Source of the DNA: an uncultured Bacteroidota bacterium
GTDB taxonomy: Bacteria > Bacteroidota > Bacteroidia > Flavobacteriales > Flavobacteriaceae
Length of the DNA stretch: 64,000 nt
Assembly (NCBI GenBank): GCA_902514615.1
Contig: CABXRG010000003.1
Span: 1 to 64,000, forward strand
Direction of reading: 5' to 3'
Below the pieces are notes generated by a model. It saw nothing but the letters and a program-made list of their open reading frames with translations. It searched no databases and was not told the DNA's origin. Within the stretch, counting starts at the first letter, position 1. Each line of letters begins with the position of its first letter. Shown here piece by piece: positions 35,814 to 45,285 of this stretch. Made by a program: the position numbers and the translations under genes.

Positions 35814-36614
35814 TTATTTAATTATTTCAACCTTATTTATGTAAACATTATCTAAAGGCCAGTCTCTGTTATCGGTTGGCAAATTTGCGATTTTGTCTAC
35901 TGTTTCCATTCCATCAATTACTTCTCCAAAAATAGTGTAATCACCGTCTAAGTGATGAGCTCCGCCCTTTTTTTGAACAATAAAAAATTCAAATGGAGAT
36001 GCCATTTTATATGGATTATCAACTGAGCTACTAGGCATACTTACCATTCCTCTTTTATGCGTATGGCCTTTATTAAAATCATTTGGCAGAAGATACTTTC
36101 CAATATCTTTTCTTTTTTTTGAAATTTTTATGTTGTCACTATTACCTGCCTGTATAACAAAATCATTAATAACCCTGTAAAATTGAGTTCCCTCAAAATA
36201 TTTTTTTTTAGTTAAGTATATGAAATTCGATCTGTGATATGGAGTATTATCAAATAATTGGATATCTATATTTCCAAAAGGTGTATAAATTCTTACTCGG
36301 TTTTCTTTATTTTTTTTTTCAAACTCAAATAAAACATTGATTACATTATCATCTGTCAATCTCAATTCTTCCTTAATATCATTCATGGAAGAAACACTGA
36401 CCTCTTCTTCGGTTTTTACTTTGATTTTTTCATTTAGATTTGATTCAATTGAAGGATTTGTTGATTTAGGGTTACATCCTGTTAAGAGTACTAAAATAAA
36501 AACAATAAAAGTTTGTTTGGTCACTTTCAATAGTTTAAAATTTTTATAAATAAGGAACATATACAACTTTTTTTGTCTGAAAAAAGTCCTCATTGAAAAA
36601 GTCAGAAATTTCAA
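35814..36614 (-). CDS. Cyclophilin-type peptidylprolyl isomerase, lipoprotein
   Basis: TQFYRVINDFVIQAG; MASPFEFFIVQ; lipobox LLTGC; true start lies downstream of 36614 in the ORF. Confidence 0.88.
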   Translation of the reverse strand: MKFLTFSMRTFFRQKKLYMFLIYKNFKLLKVTKQTFIVFILVLLTGCNPKSTNPSIESNLNEKIKVKTEEEVSVSSMNDIKEELRLTDDNVINVLFEFEKKNKENRVRIYTPFGNIDIQLFDNTPYHRSNFIYLTKKKYFEGTQFYRVINDFVIQAGNSDNIKISKKRKDIGKYLLPNDFNKGHTHKRGMVSMPSSSVDNPYKMASPFEFFIVQKKGGAHHLDGDYTIFGEVIDGMETVDKIANLPTDNRDWPLDNVYINKVEIIK

Positions 36615-37164
36615 ACACCTTATTATTTTTATGATCTTTTAATTCTTTTTCTAGGTTACCACCTTTTAAAGAAATTATACCATTTGGTAATTCATTTAAA
36701 GATTTAGATTTAATATTCTTGTTAACCATAGAATAAAACTTATCCATTTTAGACACTGCTCTTGATACAACAAAGTCATATTTATCATTATGATCCTCTA
36801 CTCGACCATTTACTGCTTTTACATTGTTCAGTGACAAGTTTTTAGATATATCTTCTACAACTTTAATTTTTTTTCCAATACTGTCTAATAAAGTAAAATT
36901 AACCTTTGGAAAAAAAATAGATAGTGGTATACCAGGAAAACCTCCACCAGTTCCAACATCAAGTATATTAGTTCCTTCCTTAAATTTTATAATCTTTATA
37001 ATAGCTAGAGAATGTAGGATGTGATTAATGTATAAATTTTCAATATCTCTTCTAGAAATTAAATTTACTTTTGAATTCCAGCTTCTATACAAAGGGATTA
37101 GACTATTATATTTCTCTAACTGTTCCGGAGATAAATTAGAAAAATATTTCTTTAAATTAATCAA
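36544..37164 (-). CDS. rsmG: 16S rRNA (guanine527-N7)-methyltransferase
   Basis: ILDVGTGGGFPGIPLSIFFP; NGRVED. Confidence 0.96.
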   Translation of the reverse strand: MINLKKYFSNLSPEQLEKYNSLIPLYRSWNSKVNLISRRDIENLYINHILHSLAIIKIIKFKEGTNILDVGTGGGFPGIPLSIFFPKVNFTLLDSIGKKIKVVEDISKNLSLNNVKAVNGRVEDHNDKYDFVVSRAVSKMDKFYSMVNKNIKSKSLNELPNGIISLKGGNLEKELKDHKNNKVFEISDFFNEDFFQTKKVVYVPYL

Positions 37165-38342
37165 GATAAAATATCTTTAATTCTCTTAATAGCTTCTTCT
37201 ATTTGTTCTCTAGATGTTGAGTATGAAATTCTTATACAGTTTGGATAACCAAAAGCATCACCAGGAACAGTAGCAACATGAGCCTTCTCTAAAATTAACA
37301 TTGATAAATCGTTTGCATTCTTAACAGTTTGGCCCTTAAATGTCTTACCAAATAATTCAGATACTTCAGGAAAAACATAGAATGCACCAGCTGGAGGTTT
37401 TTTTATTTCAAAACCCTCAATTTGATTGACTAATTCAATTATTAAATCTCTTCTAATTTTAAATTCATCAACCATATATTTAATTCTTTCAGGAGATTCT
37501 TCTAATGCTTTAATTGTAGCCCTTTGTGCGATACAATTTGCACCACTTGTTATTTGACCTTGCATTTTATTACATGCTTTGGCTATCACTTTAGGGGCGG
37601 CTAAATATCCGATTCTCCAACCTGTCATTGCAAATGCTTTAGATATTCCATTTACAGTTACAGTTCTCTCATACATGCCCGGTAAACTTGCAAAACTTAC
37701 ACTTTTAGAACCATAATTAATATGCTCATATATTTCATCTGAAACAACAATTATATTTGGATAGTTTTGCAAAACTTTTGAAAACGCTAAATATTCTTCT
37801 TCACTAAAAACTGAACCACTAGGATTATTTGGCGAATTAAACATTATCATTTTTGTTTTTTCTGTTATTGCAGATTCAAGTTGTTCTGCAGTAACCTTAT
37901 AATTTGCATCTTCATGCGGATGAACAAATACGGGGATTCCATCTGCAAGAGATACCATAGCACTATAACTAACCCAATATGGAGTTGGAATAACAACCTC
38001 ATCACCTTTATTTATAAGAGACATGCAAACATTTGCAATAGATTGTTTAGCTCCAGTAGATACAACAATTTGATCAGTGTCATAATCCAAATTATTATCT
38101 CTTTTGAATTTTCCACAAATTGCTTTTTTAAGATCTAGAAAGCCATCAACAGGAGAATACTTATGATAATTTTCATTTATAGCATCAATCGCTGCTTCCT
38201 TTATATAATCAGGTATATTAAAGTCAGGTTCACCTGCACTTAAAGTTATAACGTCTATACCTTTATTCTTTAAATCATGAGCTTTAGCAGTCATTGCAAC
38301 AGTTTGTGAAATTGGTAATGATTTAATTTTATCTGATAACAT
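37161..38342 (-). CDS. PLP-dependent aminotransferase (aspartate/aromatic type)
   Basis: NSPNNPSGSVFSEEE; VNGISKAFAMTGWRIGYLAAP. Confidence 0.94.
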   Translation of the reverse strand: MLSDKIKSLPISQTVAMTAKAHDLKNKGIDVITLSAGEPDFNIPDYIKEAAIDAINENYHKYSPVDGFLDLKKAICGKFKRDNNLDYDTDQIVVSTGAKQSIANVCMSLINKGDEVVIPTPYWVSYSAMVSLADGIPVFVHPHEDANYKVTAEQLESAITEKTKMIMFNSPNNPSGSVFSEEEYLAFSKVLQNYPNIIVVSDEIYEHINYGSKSVSFASLPGMYERTVTVNGISKAFAMTGWRIGYLAAPKVIAKACNKMQGQITSGANCIAQRATIKALEESPERIKYMVDEFKIRRDLIIELVNQIEGFEIKKPPAGAFYVFPEVSELFGKTFKGQTVKNANDLSMLILEKAHVATVPGDAFGYPNCIRISYSTSREQIEEAIKRIKDILS

Positions 38343-38349
38343 GCTTTTA

Positions 38350-39432
38350 TTATTTATTTAAAATTTTTTTTTGGTTGTTTATAGATTCTTGGTGTATTGC
38401 TTTAAAAAACCTCAGAATGAATTCTTCACTTAAACCATGATCCTCACCATCTAGTATCATCTTTCCTAGGATTTCATTCCATCTTTTATTTTGAAGTATT
38501 GCAACATTATTATCTGATTTAAGTTTACCAATATCTTTGGCAACTTTCATTCTTTTTCCAAGGGTTGTTAATAAATTTTGATCTGCAACATCAATTTGAG
38601 ATCTTAAATTATTTAATTGATTTTGATAATCTTCTCCCTGAGAAGTCTTATCTCTTATTTTAAGGTCCTTCATTATTTGTATTAAATGTTTTGGCGTAAC
38701 CTGCTGAGCGGCATCACTCCAGGCATTATCTGGATCCCAATGTGATTCAATCATTAAACCATCATAATTTAAATCCAAAGATGTTTGACTTAAATCATAA
38801 ATTAAATCTCTTTTTCCTGCAATGTGAGATGGATCACAGATAAGAGGAATATCAGGGAAATTATTTTGAAACTCAACAGCAATTTGCCATTCAGGGTTAT
38901 TTCTATATTTGGATTTATCGTATGAGGAAAAGCCTCTATGAATAACTCCAATATTTTTAATATCAGCTGAATAAATTCTTTCTAAACCACCCATCCATAA
39001 AGCCAAATCAGGATTAACAGGATTTTTTATCAATACTATCTTATCTGTCCCTTTTAATGCATCTGCAATTTCTTGAACTATAAATGGACTTACAGTTGAT
39101 CTTGCTCCAATCCATAATATATCAATATCATGTTTTAATGCCAAATCTACATGAACAGAATTAGCAACCTCTGTTGCTATTTTTAAACCAGTTTCTTTTT
39201 TTACTTTTTCTAACCATTTCAATCCAATTGCACCAACTCCTTCAAACATTCCAGGTCTTGTTCGTGGTTTCCAAATTCCAGCTCTATACGCACTTACATC
39301 AGAGTCTTTTAATTCGTGTGCAATTTTTAAAACTTGTTCTTCAGTTTCCGCACTACACGGACCTGCAATAACAAGCGGATGATCTAAGTTCATATGGTCA
39401 AGCCAATTCCTGTACTCTTTTTTATTTTTCAT
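38350..39432 (-). CDS. Bifunctional 3-deoxy-7-phosphoheptulonate synthase / chorismate mutase type II
   Basis: VIAGPCSAETEEQ...RAGIWKPRTRPG (DAHPS) plus C-terminal AroQ-type helical domain. Confidence 0.94.
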   Translation of the reverse strand: MKNKKEYRNWLDHMNLDHPLVIAGPCSAETEEQVLKIAHELKDSDVSAYRAGIWKPRTRPGMFEGVGAIGLKWLEKVKKETGLKIATEVANSVHVDLALKHDIDILWIGARSTVSPFIVQEIADALKGTDKIVLIKNPVNPDLALWMGGLERIYSADIKNIGVIHRGFSSYDKSKYRNNPEWQIAVEFQNNFPDIPLICDPSHIAGKRDLIYDLSQTSLDLNYDGLMIESHWDPDNAWSDAAQQVTPKHLIQIMKDLKIRDKTSQGEDYQNQLNNLRSQIDVADQNLLTTLGKRMKVAKDIGKLKSDNNVAILQNKRWNEILGKMILDGEDHGLSEEFILRFFKAIHQESINNQKKILNK

Positions 39433-39437
39433 AGTTT

Positions 39438-40286
39438 CTAGTTAATTCCTTTTAAAATTTCTTTAATGCCATTGATTTTTTTCATTTCAGTGTTAAGATT
39501 ATCCTGATCACTACTCTCAATCATTTTTTTAAAATTATTAATATTTAAGATGTATTCCTCAAGAGATTCAATAATGTTTATTTTGTTTTCAATAAAGATT
39601 GAAGACCACATTTCAGGAGAACTTTTAGCTAATCTAACTGTGGATTCAAATCCACTACCAGCCATATCGTAAATTGTTTGTTCATCATCCTCTTTATCCA
39701 TAACTGTTTTTCCTAACATAAAAGATGAAATATGTGATAAATGAGACACATAAGCTATATGCTTATCATGTGCTATTGAATCCATTGTCTTAATACTCAT
39801 TCCTAAATTTTTAAAGATTTCAATTGCTCCTGAAAGCAGAGTAGATGAAGTCATTTCAGTTTCACATAAAATCATAACCTTTTTATCAAATAAATCTTTT
39901 TTTGCTGCAACAGGACCTGAAAATTCAGTACCAGCTATTGGATGTGCAGCTAAAAAGTTTTTTCTTTTATTGTGGTTTTTTACAGATTTACAAATTTCAT
40001 ATTTAGTTGATCCTAAATCAATCACCAAAGTTTTTTTAGGTATTCTATTTAGAATACTATTTAGCTGATTTTTAATTGATTCAACAGGAACTGCGAGGAA
40101 TAAATAATCAAAATCTAATGATGATTTTGGATCAAATACTTTATCTATAATTTTATTCTTTAATGAAAAGTCAAGTGATTGATTGTTCTTATCAAAACCA
40201 TAGATAGAAATATTTTTATTGACTTCTTTCAATTTTAAAGCAATAGATCCACCTATTAAACCTAAACCTATTATCCCAACTTTCAT
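39438..40286 (-). CDS. tyrA: Prephenate dehydrogenase
   Basis: GLGLIGGSIALKL; AAHPIAGTEFSG. Confidence 0.94.
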   Translation of the reverse strand: MKVGIIGLGLIGGSIALKLKEVNKNISIYGFDKNNQSLDFSLKNKIIDKVFDPKSSLDFDYLFLAVPVESIKNQLNSILNRIPKKTLVIDLGSTKYEICKSVKNHNKRKNFLAAHPIAGTEFSGPVAAKKDLFDKKVMILCETEMTSSTLLSGAIEIFKNLGMSIKTMDSIAHDKHIAYVSHLSHISSFMLGKTVMDKEDDEQTIYDMAGSGFESTVRLAKSSPEMWSSIFIENKINIIESLEEYILNINNFKKMIESSDQDNLNTEMKKINGIKEILKGIN

Positions 40287-41095
40287 ATTTTTTGATATTT
40301 ATACTCACCTAAAATTTTAAATTCTTGAGCCATTAATTCAATGATTTTGACTGCCTTTTGGTAGCTTTCAATTGAACTAAAAGTTATATCAACAAAAAAG
40401 GCGTATTTACCAGGAATTTGAATAACTGGTAAAGATTGAATTTTTGTTAGATTTAAACTACAATCACTCATCATATTCAGAACTGTAGCTAGACTTCCTC
40501 TTTTATGATCGAGAATAAACTTTAGAGCTGCCTTATTATAATCAATTATATTTTTTTGATTCTTTTCAAGAACAACAAATCGAGTCTTATTATTTTTAAT
40601 GGTTTGTATTGAGGATTCTAAAATTGTCAAATTATATATCTTAGAAGCATCTATACTAGCAATTGCAGCAACCCCCATAATCTTTTTATCGGCTATATTT
40701 TTTGCACCTAACGCTGTATCCTCACTTTCAATTAATTTTATATGAGGATAATTACTGAAAAACTTAGAACACTGTAATAAAGCCATTGGATGAGAATGAA
40801 CTTCTTGGATATCATTAATTTTTTGATTTGGAAGACACATTAAGTTGTGATCAATATTTAAACTGTATTCTCCGGTGATTGAAAGATTATACTCATCTAT
40901 TAAAGCATAGTTTGGAAGGATTGAACCAGCAATTGAATTTTCAATAGCCATTATTCCATACTCAGAGTCGTTATCAACTACTGATTTTACAAGACTCTCA
41001 AAAGTTGAACATTCATTTAATTCAAATGAATCAAAATAATGATTAGCTACCATATGGTGAAATGATCCTCTAATTCCCTGAATAGATACTTTCAT
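40283..41095 (-). CDS. pheA: Prephenate dehydratase
   Basis: IQGIRGSFHHMVA; MAIENSIAGSI; NKTRFVVL; C-terminal ACT domain. Confidence 0.95.
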   Translation of the reverse strand: MKVSIQGIRGSFHHMVANHYFDSFELNECSTFESLVKSVVDNDSEYGIMAIENSIAGSILPNYALIDEYNLSITGEYSLNIDHNLMCLPNQKINDIQEVHSHPMALLQCSKFFSNYPHIKLIESEDTALGAKNIADKKIMGVAAIASIDASKIYNLTILESSIQTIKNNKTRFVVLEKNQKNIIDYNKAALKFILDHKRGSLATVLNMMSDCSLNLTKIQSLPVIQIPGKYAFFVDITFSSIESYQKAVKIIELMAQEFKILGEYKYQKI

Positions 41096-41097
41096 AT

Positions 41098-41125
41098 AAA
41101 AAAAAAGTCCTGATTTGACAGGACT
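41098..41125 (-). terminator. Attenuator terminator of the pheA operon
   Basis: Minus strand AGTCCTG-TCAAAT-CAGGACT followed by a T9 run, ending 2 nt before the pheA ATG. Confidence 0.9.
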
Positions 41126-41162
41126 AGTATATTTAATTTTTACATAACATAGTTATCCTGTC
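41117..41162 (-). promoter_or_regulatory. Predicted antiterminator pairing GACAGGAU (41155-41162) with GUCCUGUC (41117-41124)
   Basis: 8 complementary nt (one G-U); the 3' arm overlaps the terminator 5' arm and the 5' arm overlaps the leader stop codon. Confidence 0.75.
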
Positions 41163-41215
41163 TTCAGATTGAAGAAGAAATAATAGTTATAATAAAAGTT
41201 AAAATTATTTGTCAT
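41153..41215 (-). CDS. Phe/Tyr-rich attenuator leader peptide MTNNFNFYYNYYFFFNLKTG
   Basis: 20 codons with 5 Phe and 4 Tyr, stop TAA overlapping the antiterminator arm, directly upstream of pheA-tyrA-DAHPS/CM. Confidence 0.88.
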   Translation of the reverse strand: MTNNFNFYYNYYFFFNLKTG

Positions 41216-41221
41216 TATTAA

Positions 41222-41252
41222 CAAAAGTATAATAGGTATACATAAAAACAAA
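41222..41252 (-). promoter_or_regulatory. Bacteroidetes-type promoter TTTG-N19-TACTTTTG for the aromatic operon
   Basis: Exact match to the TTTG / TAnnTTTG consensus with 19-nt spacer. Confidence 0.8.
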
Positions 41253-41261
41253 TTTTTTGAT

Positions 41262-41690
41262 CTATTTTTTAATTATTGATCCGTTTAAATATATAGAATG
41301 TTCTATTGTTGTAGACTTTTCTAAATTCTTTGAAACTGAGCAGTATTTATCAAAACTTAATGCTGCTGCGCGAATTATTTTATCACCAGGAATATCACCT
41401 TCTACAAAAAGCTTTACATGAATTCTTTTATATGGTTCACCAGGAGTTGATTCTCTATCACCCTCAACTTCCATTTTGTATGAATCTGGGTTTAATTTTT
41501 GCTTTTCTAATATAGATATAATGTCAATACTACTACATCCTGCAACACCCATTAATAGTAACTCCATTGGACTCACTCCCTTTACATTATAATCTGGAGA
41601 GTATTTTCTATCAAGAAATACTTGATGTCCATTTTTATTAGTTAACTCAAATAAGTATTTGTCATTAACTCTATCTAATTGTACTGCCAT
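41262..41690 (-). CDS. OsmC family protein
   Basis: GVSPMELLLMGVAGCSSIDI; start likely MAVQLDR (ORF track 41735). Confidence 0.9.
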   Translation of the reverse strand: MAVQLDRVNDKYLFELTNKNGHQVFLDRKYSPDYNVKGVSPMELLLMGVAGCSSIDIISILEKQKLNPDSYKMEVEGDRESTPGEPYKRIHVKLFVEGDIPGDKIIRAAALSFDKYCSVSKNLEKSTTIEHSIYLNGSIIKK

Positions 41691-45178: not shown

Positions 45179-45225
45179 AAAATTGGTTTGTGAGAAAAAA
45201 AATGAAAGATTGCGAGTAAAAAGAT

Positions 45226-45280
45226 TACTGCTTTAGCAATTTTTTTAAGAGGTTGCAATCAGTCAAATCCTTCCTCTGTT
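45226..45280 (-). ncRNA. SAM-II-like riboswitch aptamer
   Basis: Minus strand AGAGG-AAGGAUUUGACUGAUUGCAA-CCUCU-UAAAAAAAUUGCUAAAGCAGU: P1 stem, conserved GAUUU..AUUGCAA and GCUAAA, pseudoknot ACUG/CAGU; upstream of metK. Confidence 0.8.
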
Positions 45281-45285
45281 TGACA

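Follow-up and report, generated by a model that had tools for sequence, protein, structure and literature searches.

A ribosome-mediated transcription attenuator very probably controls the pheA-tyrA-DAHP synthase/chorismate mutase-aminotransferase operon of an uncultured member of the Flavobacteriaceae, as judged from the sequence and the modelled folding of its leader. The operon is located on the minus strand of the window, that is, the whole stretch of 64,000 nucleotides that was analysed. Its upstream region contains an ORF with codons for the end products, a terminator before the first structural gene and an antiterminator that is mutually exclusive with it. The reading is carried by this anatomy, its conservation, the covariation of the pairing arms and a modelled switch. 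Classical attenuation had been proposed in a preliminary description of the same DNA, and conservation, arm covariation and modelled ribosome positions all support that proposal.

Leader Anatomy and Downstream Operon

The elements of the leader and the genes that follow are given below in the order of transcription.

41222-41252, minus strand: promoter of the Bacteroidetes sigma-A type, TTTG-N19-TACTTTTG, read directly from the sequence (TTTG at 41252-41249, 19 nt, TACTTTTG at 41229-41222, then 6 nt to the leader ATG at 41215)
41153-41215, minus strand: leader ORF MTNNFNFYYNYYFFFNLKTG and stop, 20 codons, nine of them Phe or Tyr (five Phe and four Tyr)
41155-41162, minus strand: antiterminator 5' arm GACAGGAU (GACAGGAT), overlapping the leader stop codon and complementary to 41124-41117
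41117-41124, minus strand: antiterminator 3' arm GUCCUGUC, which takes in most of the terminator 5' arm
41098-41125, minus strand: intrinsic terminator AGTCCTG-TCAAAT-CAGGACT plus T-run, with the stem-loop at 41125-41106
40283-41095, minus strand: pheA, prephenate dehydratase, the first structural gene (NCBIfam PRK11898.1, E 1.7e-56, under the curated cut-off of the model)
39438-40286, minus strand: tyrA, prephenate dehydrogenase (NCBIfam PRK08507.1, E 1.2e-104, above the cut-off), with a 4-nt overlap with pheA
38350-39432, minus strand: DAHP synthase/chorismate mutase fusion (DAHP synthase in residues 18-261, chorismate mutase in residues 271-357), with a 5-nt gap to tyrA
37161-38342, minus strand: aromatic/aspartate-type PLP aminotransferase (aspartate aminotransferase models, lowest E 2.8e-119), with a 7-nt gap to the DAHP synthase gene

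Direct reading agreed to the base with the promoter, 20-codon ORF, hairpin with T-run and antiterminator pairing previously described, and the gene order claimed for the operon was borne out by profile matches for all four genes. Adjacent genes overlap or are separated by at most 7 nt, and their products make Phe and Tyr. The T-run consists of nine T (41106-41098), the first of which is part of the stem, and ends 2 nt before the pheA ATG (41095). The pairing of GACAGGAU with GUCCUGUC comprises 8 bp, including one G-U, and folding places GACAGGAU also inside the 3' half of a leader hairpin.

A TAnnTTTG -7 box is reported at positions -12 to -5 in PMC9723704. Since this spacing was applied here, transcription is predicted to start at most about 3 nt from the leader AUG, and the 5' UTR of the leader ORF would be approximately 0-3 nt. 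By the same spacing, the start in other genera is located roughly 3-19 nt upstream of the leader AUG. A near-leaderless start as a special trait of the pheA attenuator was considered and rejected, because 7 of the 23 strict promoters before long ORFs in the same genome are also at most 9 nt from the ATG.

At the other end of the operon (35814-37164, minus strand), the aminotransferase gene is overlapped at its end by an rsmG-like methyltransferase gene, and a peptidyl-prolyl isomerase-like ORF comes next, both named from their translations only. Thus, the attenuated transcript may run beyond the aromatic genes. Directly before the pheA operon, another operon consists of metK, an O-acetylhomoserine sulfhydrylase gene, metX and an osmC-like gene. 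It is preceded by a SAM-II riboswitch (45223-45282, minus strand, 79 bits), the sole riboswitch found in the window.

Frequency of the Anatomy within the Genome

Genome-wide counts were made over 1.03 Mb of the same genome, with 47 bases of contig 16 left out. The strict terminator filter was passed by 69 hairpins, and only at the pheA leader is such a hairpin accompanied by an antiterminator match together with a TAnnTTTG box and an ORF rich in aromatic codons. ORFs of 17-24 codons starting with ATG rarely reach 45% Phe plus Tyr (3 of 3,714). When the upstreams of 786 long ORFs were searched with the attenuator rule, two sites were recovered, namely the pheA leader and a weak site with six aromatic residues (C5:63364). 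The folding energy of the leader is -24.3 kcal/mol, whereas its shuffled versions average -12.6 (z -4.3), and none of 200 equalled it. By these sequence measures, the anatomy of the pheA leader is not a product of chance.

Conservation in the Genus

The genus consists of small marine flavobacteria that are MED-G11-like. Named relatives with the same protein are metagenome-assembled genomes labelled Cryomorphaceae bacterium MED-G11 and uncultured Flavobacteriaceae. Promoter, ORF and terminator are kept in all 23 pheA-bearing members. The distance from the -7 box to the ATG is 6-9 nt in 22 of them, and the remaining one (L035) has an extra ATG in between. The terminator stem is identical in 21 members, the other two having TCAGGACT and an altered loop, and the T-run is nine long in all 23.

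In the leader ORF, seven codon columns are aromatic in 161 of 161 cases, yet Phe and Tyr are exchanged within them (TTT/TAT and TTC/TAC). For instance, column 10 has 15 Tyr and 8 Phe, column 14 has 13 Tyr and 10 Phe, and column 15 has 18 Tyr and 5 Phe. Synonymous changes occur across the 23 members, the columns without aromatic residues drift, and whole codons have been inserted or lost without a change of frame. Invariant aromatic columns with such swaps next to drifting neighbors show that selection acts on "Phe or Tyr" in translation and not on a nucleotide string. The interchange of the two residues supports, at the sequence level, a single peptide that would sense two end products.

This pattern also bears on whether a riboswitch, a T-box or an RNA-binding protein, instead of the ribosome, reads Phe or Tyr and controls the terminator. 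Such systems likewise have as output a terminator with an alternative fold. However, the conserved sensor is here a series of Phe/Tyr codons that shows synonymous changes and in-frame indels, and only translation can read such a series. Furthermore, no T-box or riboswitch family matched at 40900-41400 in Rfam, even at E up to 10, and a sensor of that kind is extremely improbable. Reading by the ribosome is therefore retained below.

Covariation of the Arms and Modelled Switch

The leader and terminator arms covary among 82 sequences. The duplex of each sequence's own pair has a mean of -11.4 kcal/mol against -8.9 for permuted pairs, the best of 2000 permutations being -9.8 kcal/mol, in a control that does not fully remove shared ancestry. 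The arm pairs are of the types GAGAC/GUCUC, GGGAC/GUCCC, AGGAC/GUCCU and CGGAAC/GUUCCG.

In the folding model, the ribosome covered 12 nt past the A-site codon, a value assumed from E. coli. In the absence of a ribosome, and likewise once the ribosome has reached the stop, the terminator in the leader of the window has a modelled probability of 1.00. The antiterminator reaches a modelled probability of 0.53-0.99 when the A-site is occupied by one of codons 8-13 (YYNYYF). Stalls at Tyr 9-12 and Phe 13 weigh most in the model and those at Phe 5, 7, 14 and 15 less, in a range that depends on the footprint. The mutual exclusivity of terminator and antiterminator that had been claimed is borne out by these modelled positions together with the covariation of the arms.

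The outcome in relatives depends on the stage of transcription that is modelled. Before the 3' arm of the terminator is made, the best aromatic stall leads to the antiterminator in all 102 sequences of genus and family, whereas a ribosome at the stop leads to it in none. At full equilibrium with the best stall, the antiterminator wins in 15 of 23 genus members and in 14 of 79 other sequences. The terminators of other genera are longer and thus win at equilibrium, so the choice in those genera would have to be kinetic and cotranscriptional, like that of classical attenuators. Read-through upon stalling and termination with a ribosome at the stop are in silico results, and weaker at full equilibrium in relatives.

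Proposed Mechanism

Transcription would begin at the leader AUG or a few nucleotides from it, and the leader peptide would be made in step with the emerging RNA. With an ample supply of charged tRNA-Phe and tRNA-Tyr, the ribosome is expected to reach the stop codon and mask GACAGGAU. AGUCCUG and CAGGACU would then pair, and transcription would end in the U-run, which stops 2 nt short of pheA. Under a shortage of Phe or Tyr, the ribosome would stall among the UUU, UUC and UAU codons and open the leader hairpin. The freed GACAGGAU would then pair with GUCCUGUC, blocking the terminator, and the operon would be transcribed. From sequence and folding we infer the translation of the ORF, the actual termination and the Phe/Tyr-dependent read-through.

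Distribution in the Family and the Class

Across the family (the genus and about 90 other genera), 103 of 111 upstreams fit a fixed rule that none of 555 shuffles satisfied. Four of the eight misses fit by eye, and a fifth, at a contig end, shows the C-terminal part of the leader and the terminator. The anatomy is hence present in about 108 of the 111, that is, those found by rule plus five by eye. The attenuator is absent upstream of pheA in three of these 111 (G013, G023, and G081). The preliminary description had stated that related upstreams without the aromatic ORF or without compensatory stem changes would speak against its reading, and the search of these upstreams did not refute it, as ORF and terminator were recovered in 23 of 23 genus members and in about 108 of 111 family upstreams, with covarying arms.

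The position of the terminator relative to pheA is informative about a different mode of control, in which hairpin and U-run near the AUG block ribosome loading on pheA and a stalled leader ribosome relieves the block. In the genus, the pheA start codon follows the T-run by 2 nt, and Bacteroidia are reported to initiate without Shine-Dalgarno pairing (PMC9976891), so structure near the pheA AUG could matter. On the contrary, the terminator ends 8-112 nt before pheA in other genera (in a single case 252 nt), and because this distance varies, what is conserved is not the proximity to the AUG. The run of nine T in all 23 genus members is, moreover, what intrinsic termination requires. A main action on pheA translation is thus considered unlikely, and transcription attenuation is preferred.

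In many genera (L012, L019, and many of L074-L133), one Trp codon is found within the Phe/Tyr run, e.g., YFNNWFYFFF and YFWNGFYFYF. This codon may add Trp sensing to the operon, given that its DAHP synthase serves the synthesis of all three aromatic amino acids.

In the class survey, 69 of 247 genomes yielded a pheA match at the cut-off used, and lineages with a diverged pheA were left out. In the other families of Bacteroidia, at least 22 of 40 pheA upstreams satisfy a strict rule, as does none of 400 shuffles, and more were recognized by eye (L229, L230, L235, L237, L253, L255, L261, and L262). Some pheA genes in these families are placed within other operons, without a leader. The attenuator is present in most of the other pheA-bearing families sampled. 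Three loci from two of the other families (L236 of G354, L258 of G392, and L262 of G278) have two tandem Phe/Tyr-rich leader ORFs upstream of pheA, each followed by a terminator.

The osmC-like and metX genes have the same direction as the pheA operon and end at 41262, and the hairpin might be seen as their terminator and the short ORF as a chance frame. A conserved promoter, however, is located between the end of these genes and the hairpin. In addition, selection maintains the aromatic codons, the leader arms change together with the terminator arms, and most of the Bacteroidia families sampled have the element in front of pheA. This explanation is refuted in substance by conservation, codon selection and arm covariation, and is left with practically negligible probability.

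For the attenuator, we lean slightly toward an ancestral, Bacteroidia-wide sensor of aromatic amino acids, read without Shine-Dalgarno pairing from near-leaderless or very short 5' UTRs. Its Phe and Tyr codons (and Trp codons in many genera) would be interchangeable, and one peptide would report the pooled shortage of the end products of the shared operon.

The trpE Leader of the Same Genome

A trpE leader peptide, MNLTNTYWWWNCDI and stop, is encoded outside the window (contig C21, position 2423, minus strand, locus L203). Its ATG follows TATATTTG by 4 nt, and a terminator GCTTGTC-TCAC-GACAGGC with T-run precedes trpE. Two or three consecutive Trp codons are present in 20 of the 21 trpE loci of the genus that were covered; the remaining locus lies at a contig end, where the Trp codon run is still visible. 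The segment TCGTGA of the leader could pair with TCACGA in the loop and 3' arm of the terminator. No Rfam match was found for this leader. Judged by its sequence, the MNLTNTYWWWNCDI leader is a second attenuator of the same genome.

Significance

The analysis provides a base-level, covariation-backed model for the control of Phe and Tyr synthesis by ribosome stalling, in a phylum without Shine-Dalgarno initiation. Even marine genomes streamlined to about 1.2 Mb retain the attenuator. The analysis also supplies what a future Rfam family would need, as none exists so far, and it makes available a simple system in which transcription-translation coupling can be tested in Bacteroidetes.

Comparison with Known Systems

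The leader peptide of E. coli, PheL, is rich in Phe and contains no Tyr. The enterobacterial pheA leader (Rfam Phe_leader, RF01859) likewise has an aromatic-codon ORF, a terminator and an antiterminator, with pheA downstream. The leader described here is predicted to work like enterobacterial pheA and trp attenuation. It differs from the pheA leader of enterobacteria in mixing Phe with Tyr (plus Trp in many genera), in its Bacteroidetes-type promoter and in its very short 5' UTR. Two family relatives score 30.8-30.9 bits against RF01859, under the gathering cut-off of 55 bits, and the leader of the window gave no match to it in Rfam at E up to 10. The Bacteroid-trp RNA motif (RF01692; Weinberg et al. 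2010, PMC2864571) is a cis-regulatory element named for trp in Bacteroidetes, and neither the pheA leader nor the trpE leader of the genus matches Rfam. No Rfam family covering the pheA attenuator was found when the leader of the window and its relatives were scanned.

Attenuators have reportedly been predicted in Bacteroidetes too, in a comparative study of 2004 by Vitreschak and others. In Bacteroides thetaiotaomicron, a putative attenuator is listed before pheA > hisHb > aroAIbeta-aroQ > tyrA (Song et al. 2005, Table 7, PMC1173090), an entry drawn from Merino's attenuator database. It shares with the present case the operon genes, the alternative-fold attenuator and the phylum, but it comes from a fold-screen database and its text mentions no leader peptide. 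In the transcriptomics of Flavobacterium psychrophilum, a conserved structured 5' element without an Rfam hit is reported upstream of pheA in that species and other Flavobacteriaceae, together with strong clues for leader-peptide attenuation before amino-acid biosynthesis operons (Guerin et al. 2021, PMC9723704). Gene, family and lack of an Rfam hit are the same as here, whereas peptide, antiterminator and covariation, described here, are not given in its main text. Because of these two notices, the attenuator is not new in kind. The preliminary description had regarded classical attenuation in a Bacteroidetes-like genome as noteworthy; classical attenuation is supported, but it is less surprising than that description suggests, as it had previously been noted for exactly this operon (PMC9723704, PMC1173090). 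What the analysis adds is the peptide and the antiterminator, evidence from codon columns and arm covariation, and the class-wide spread.
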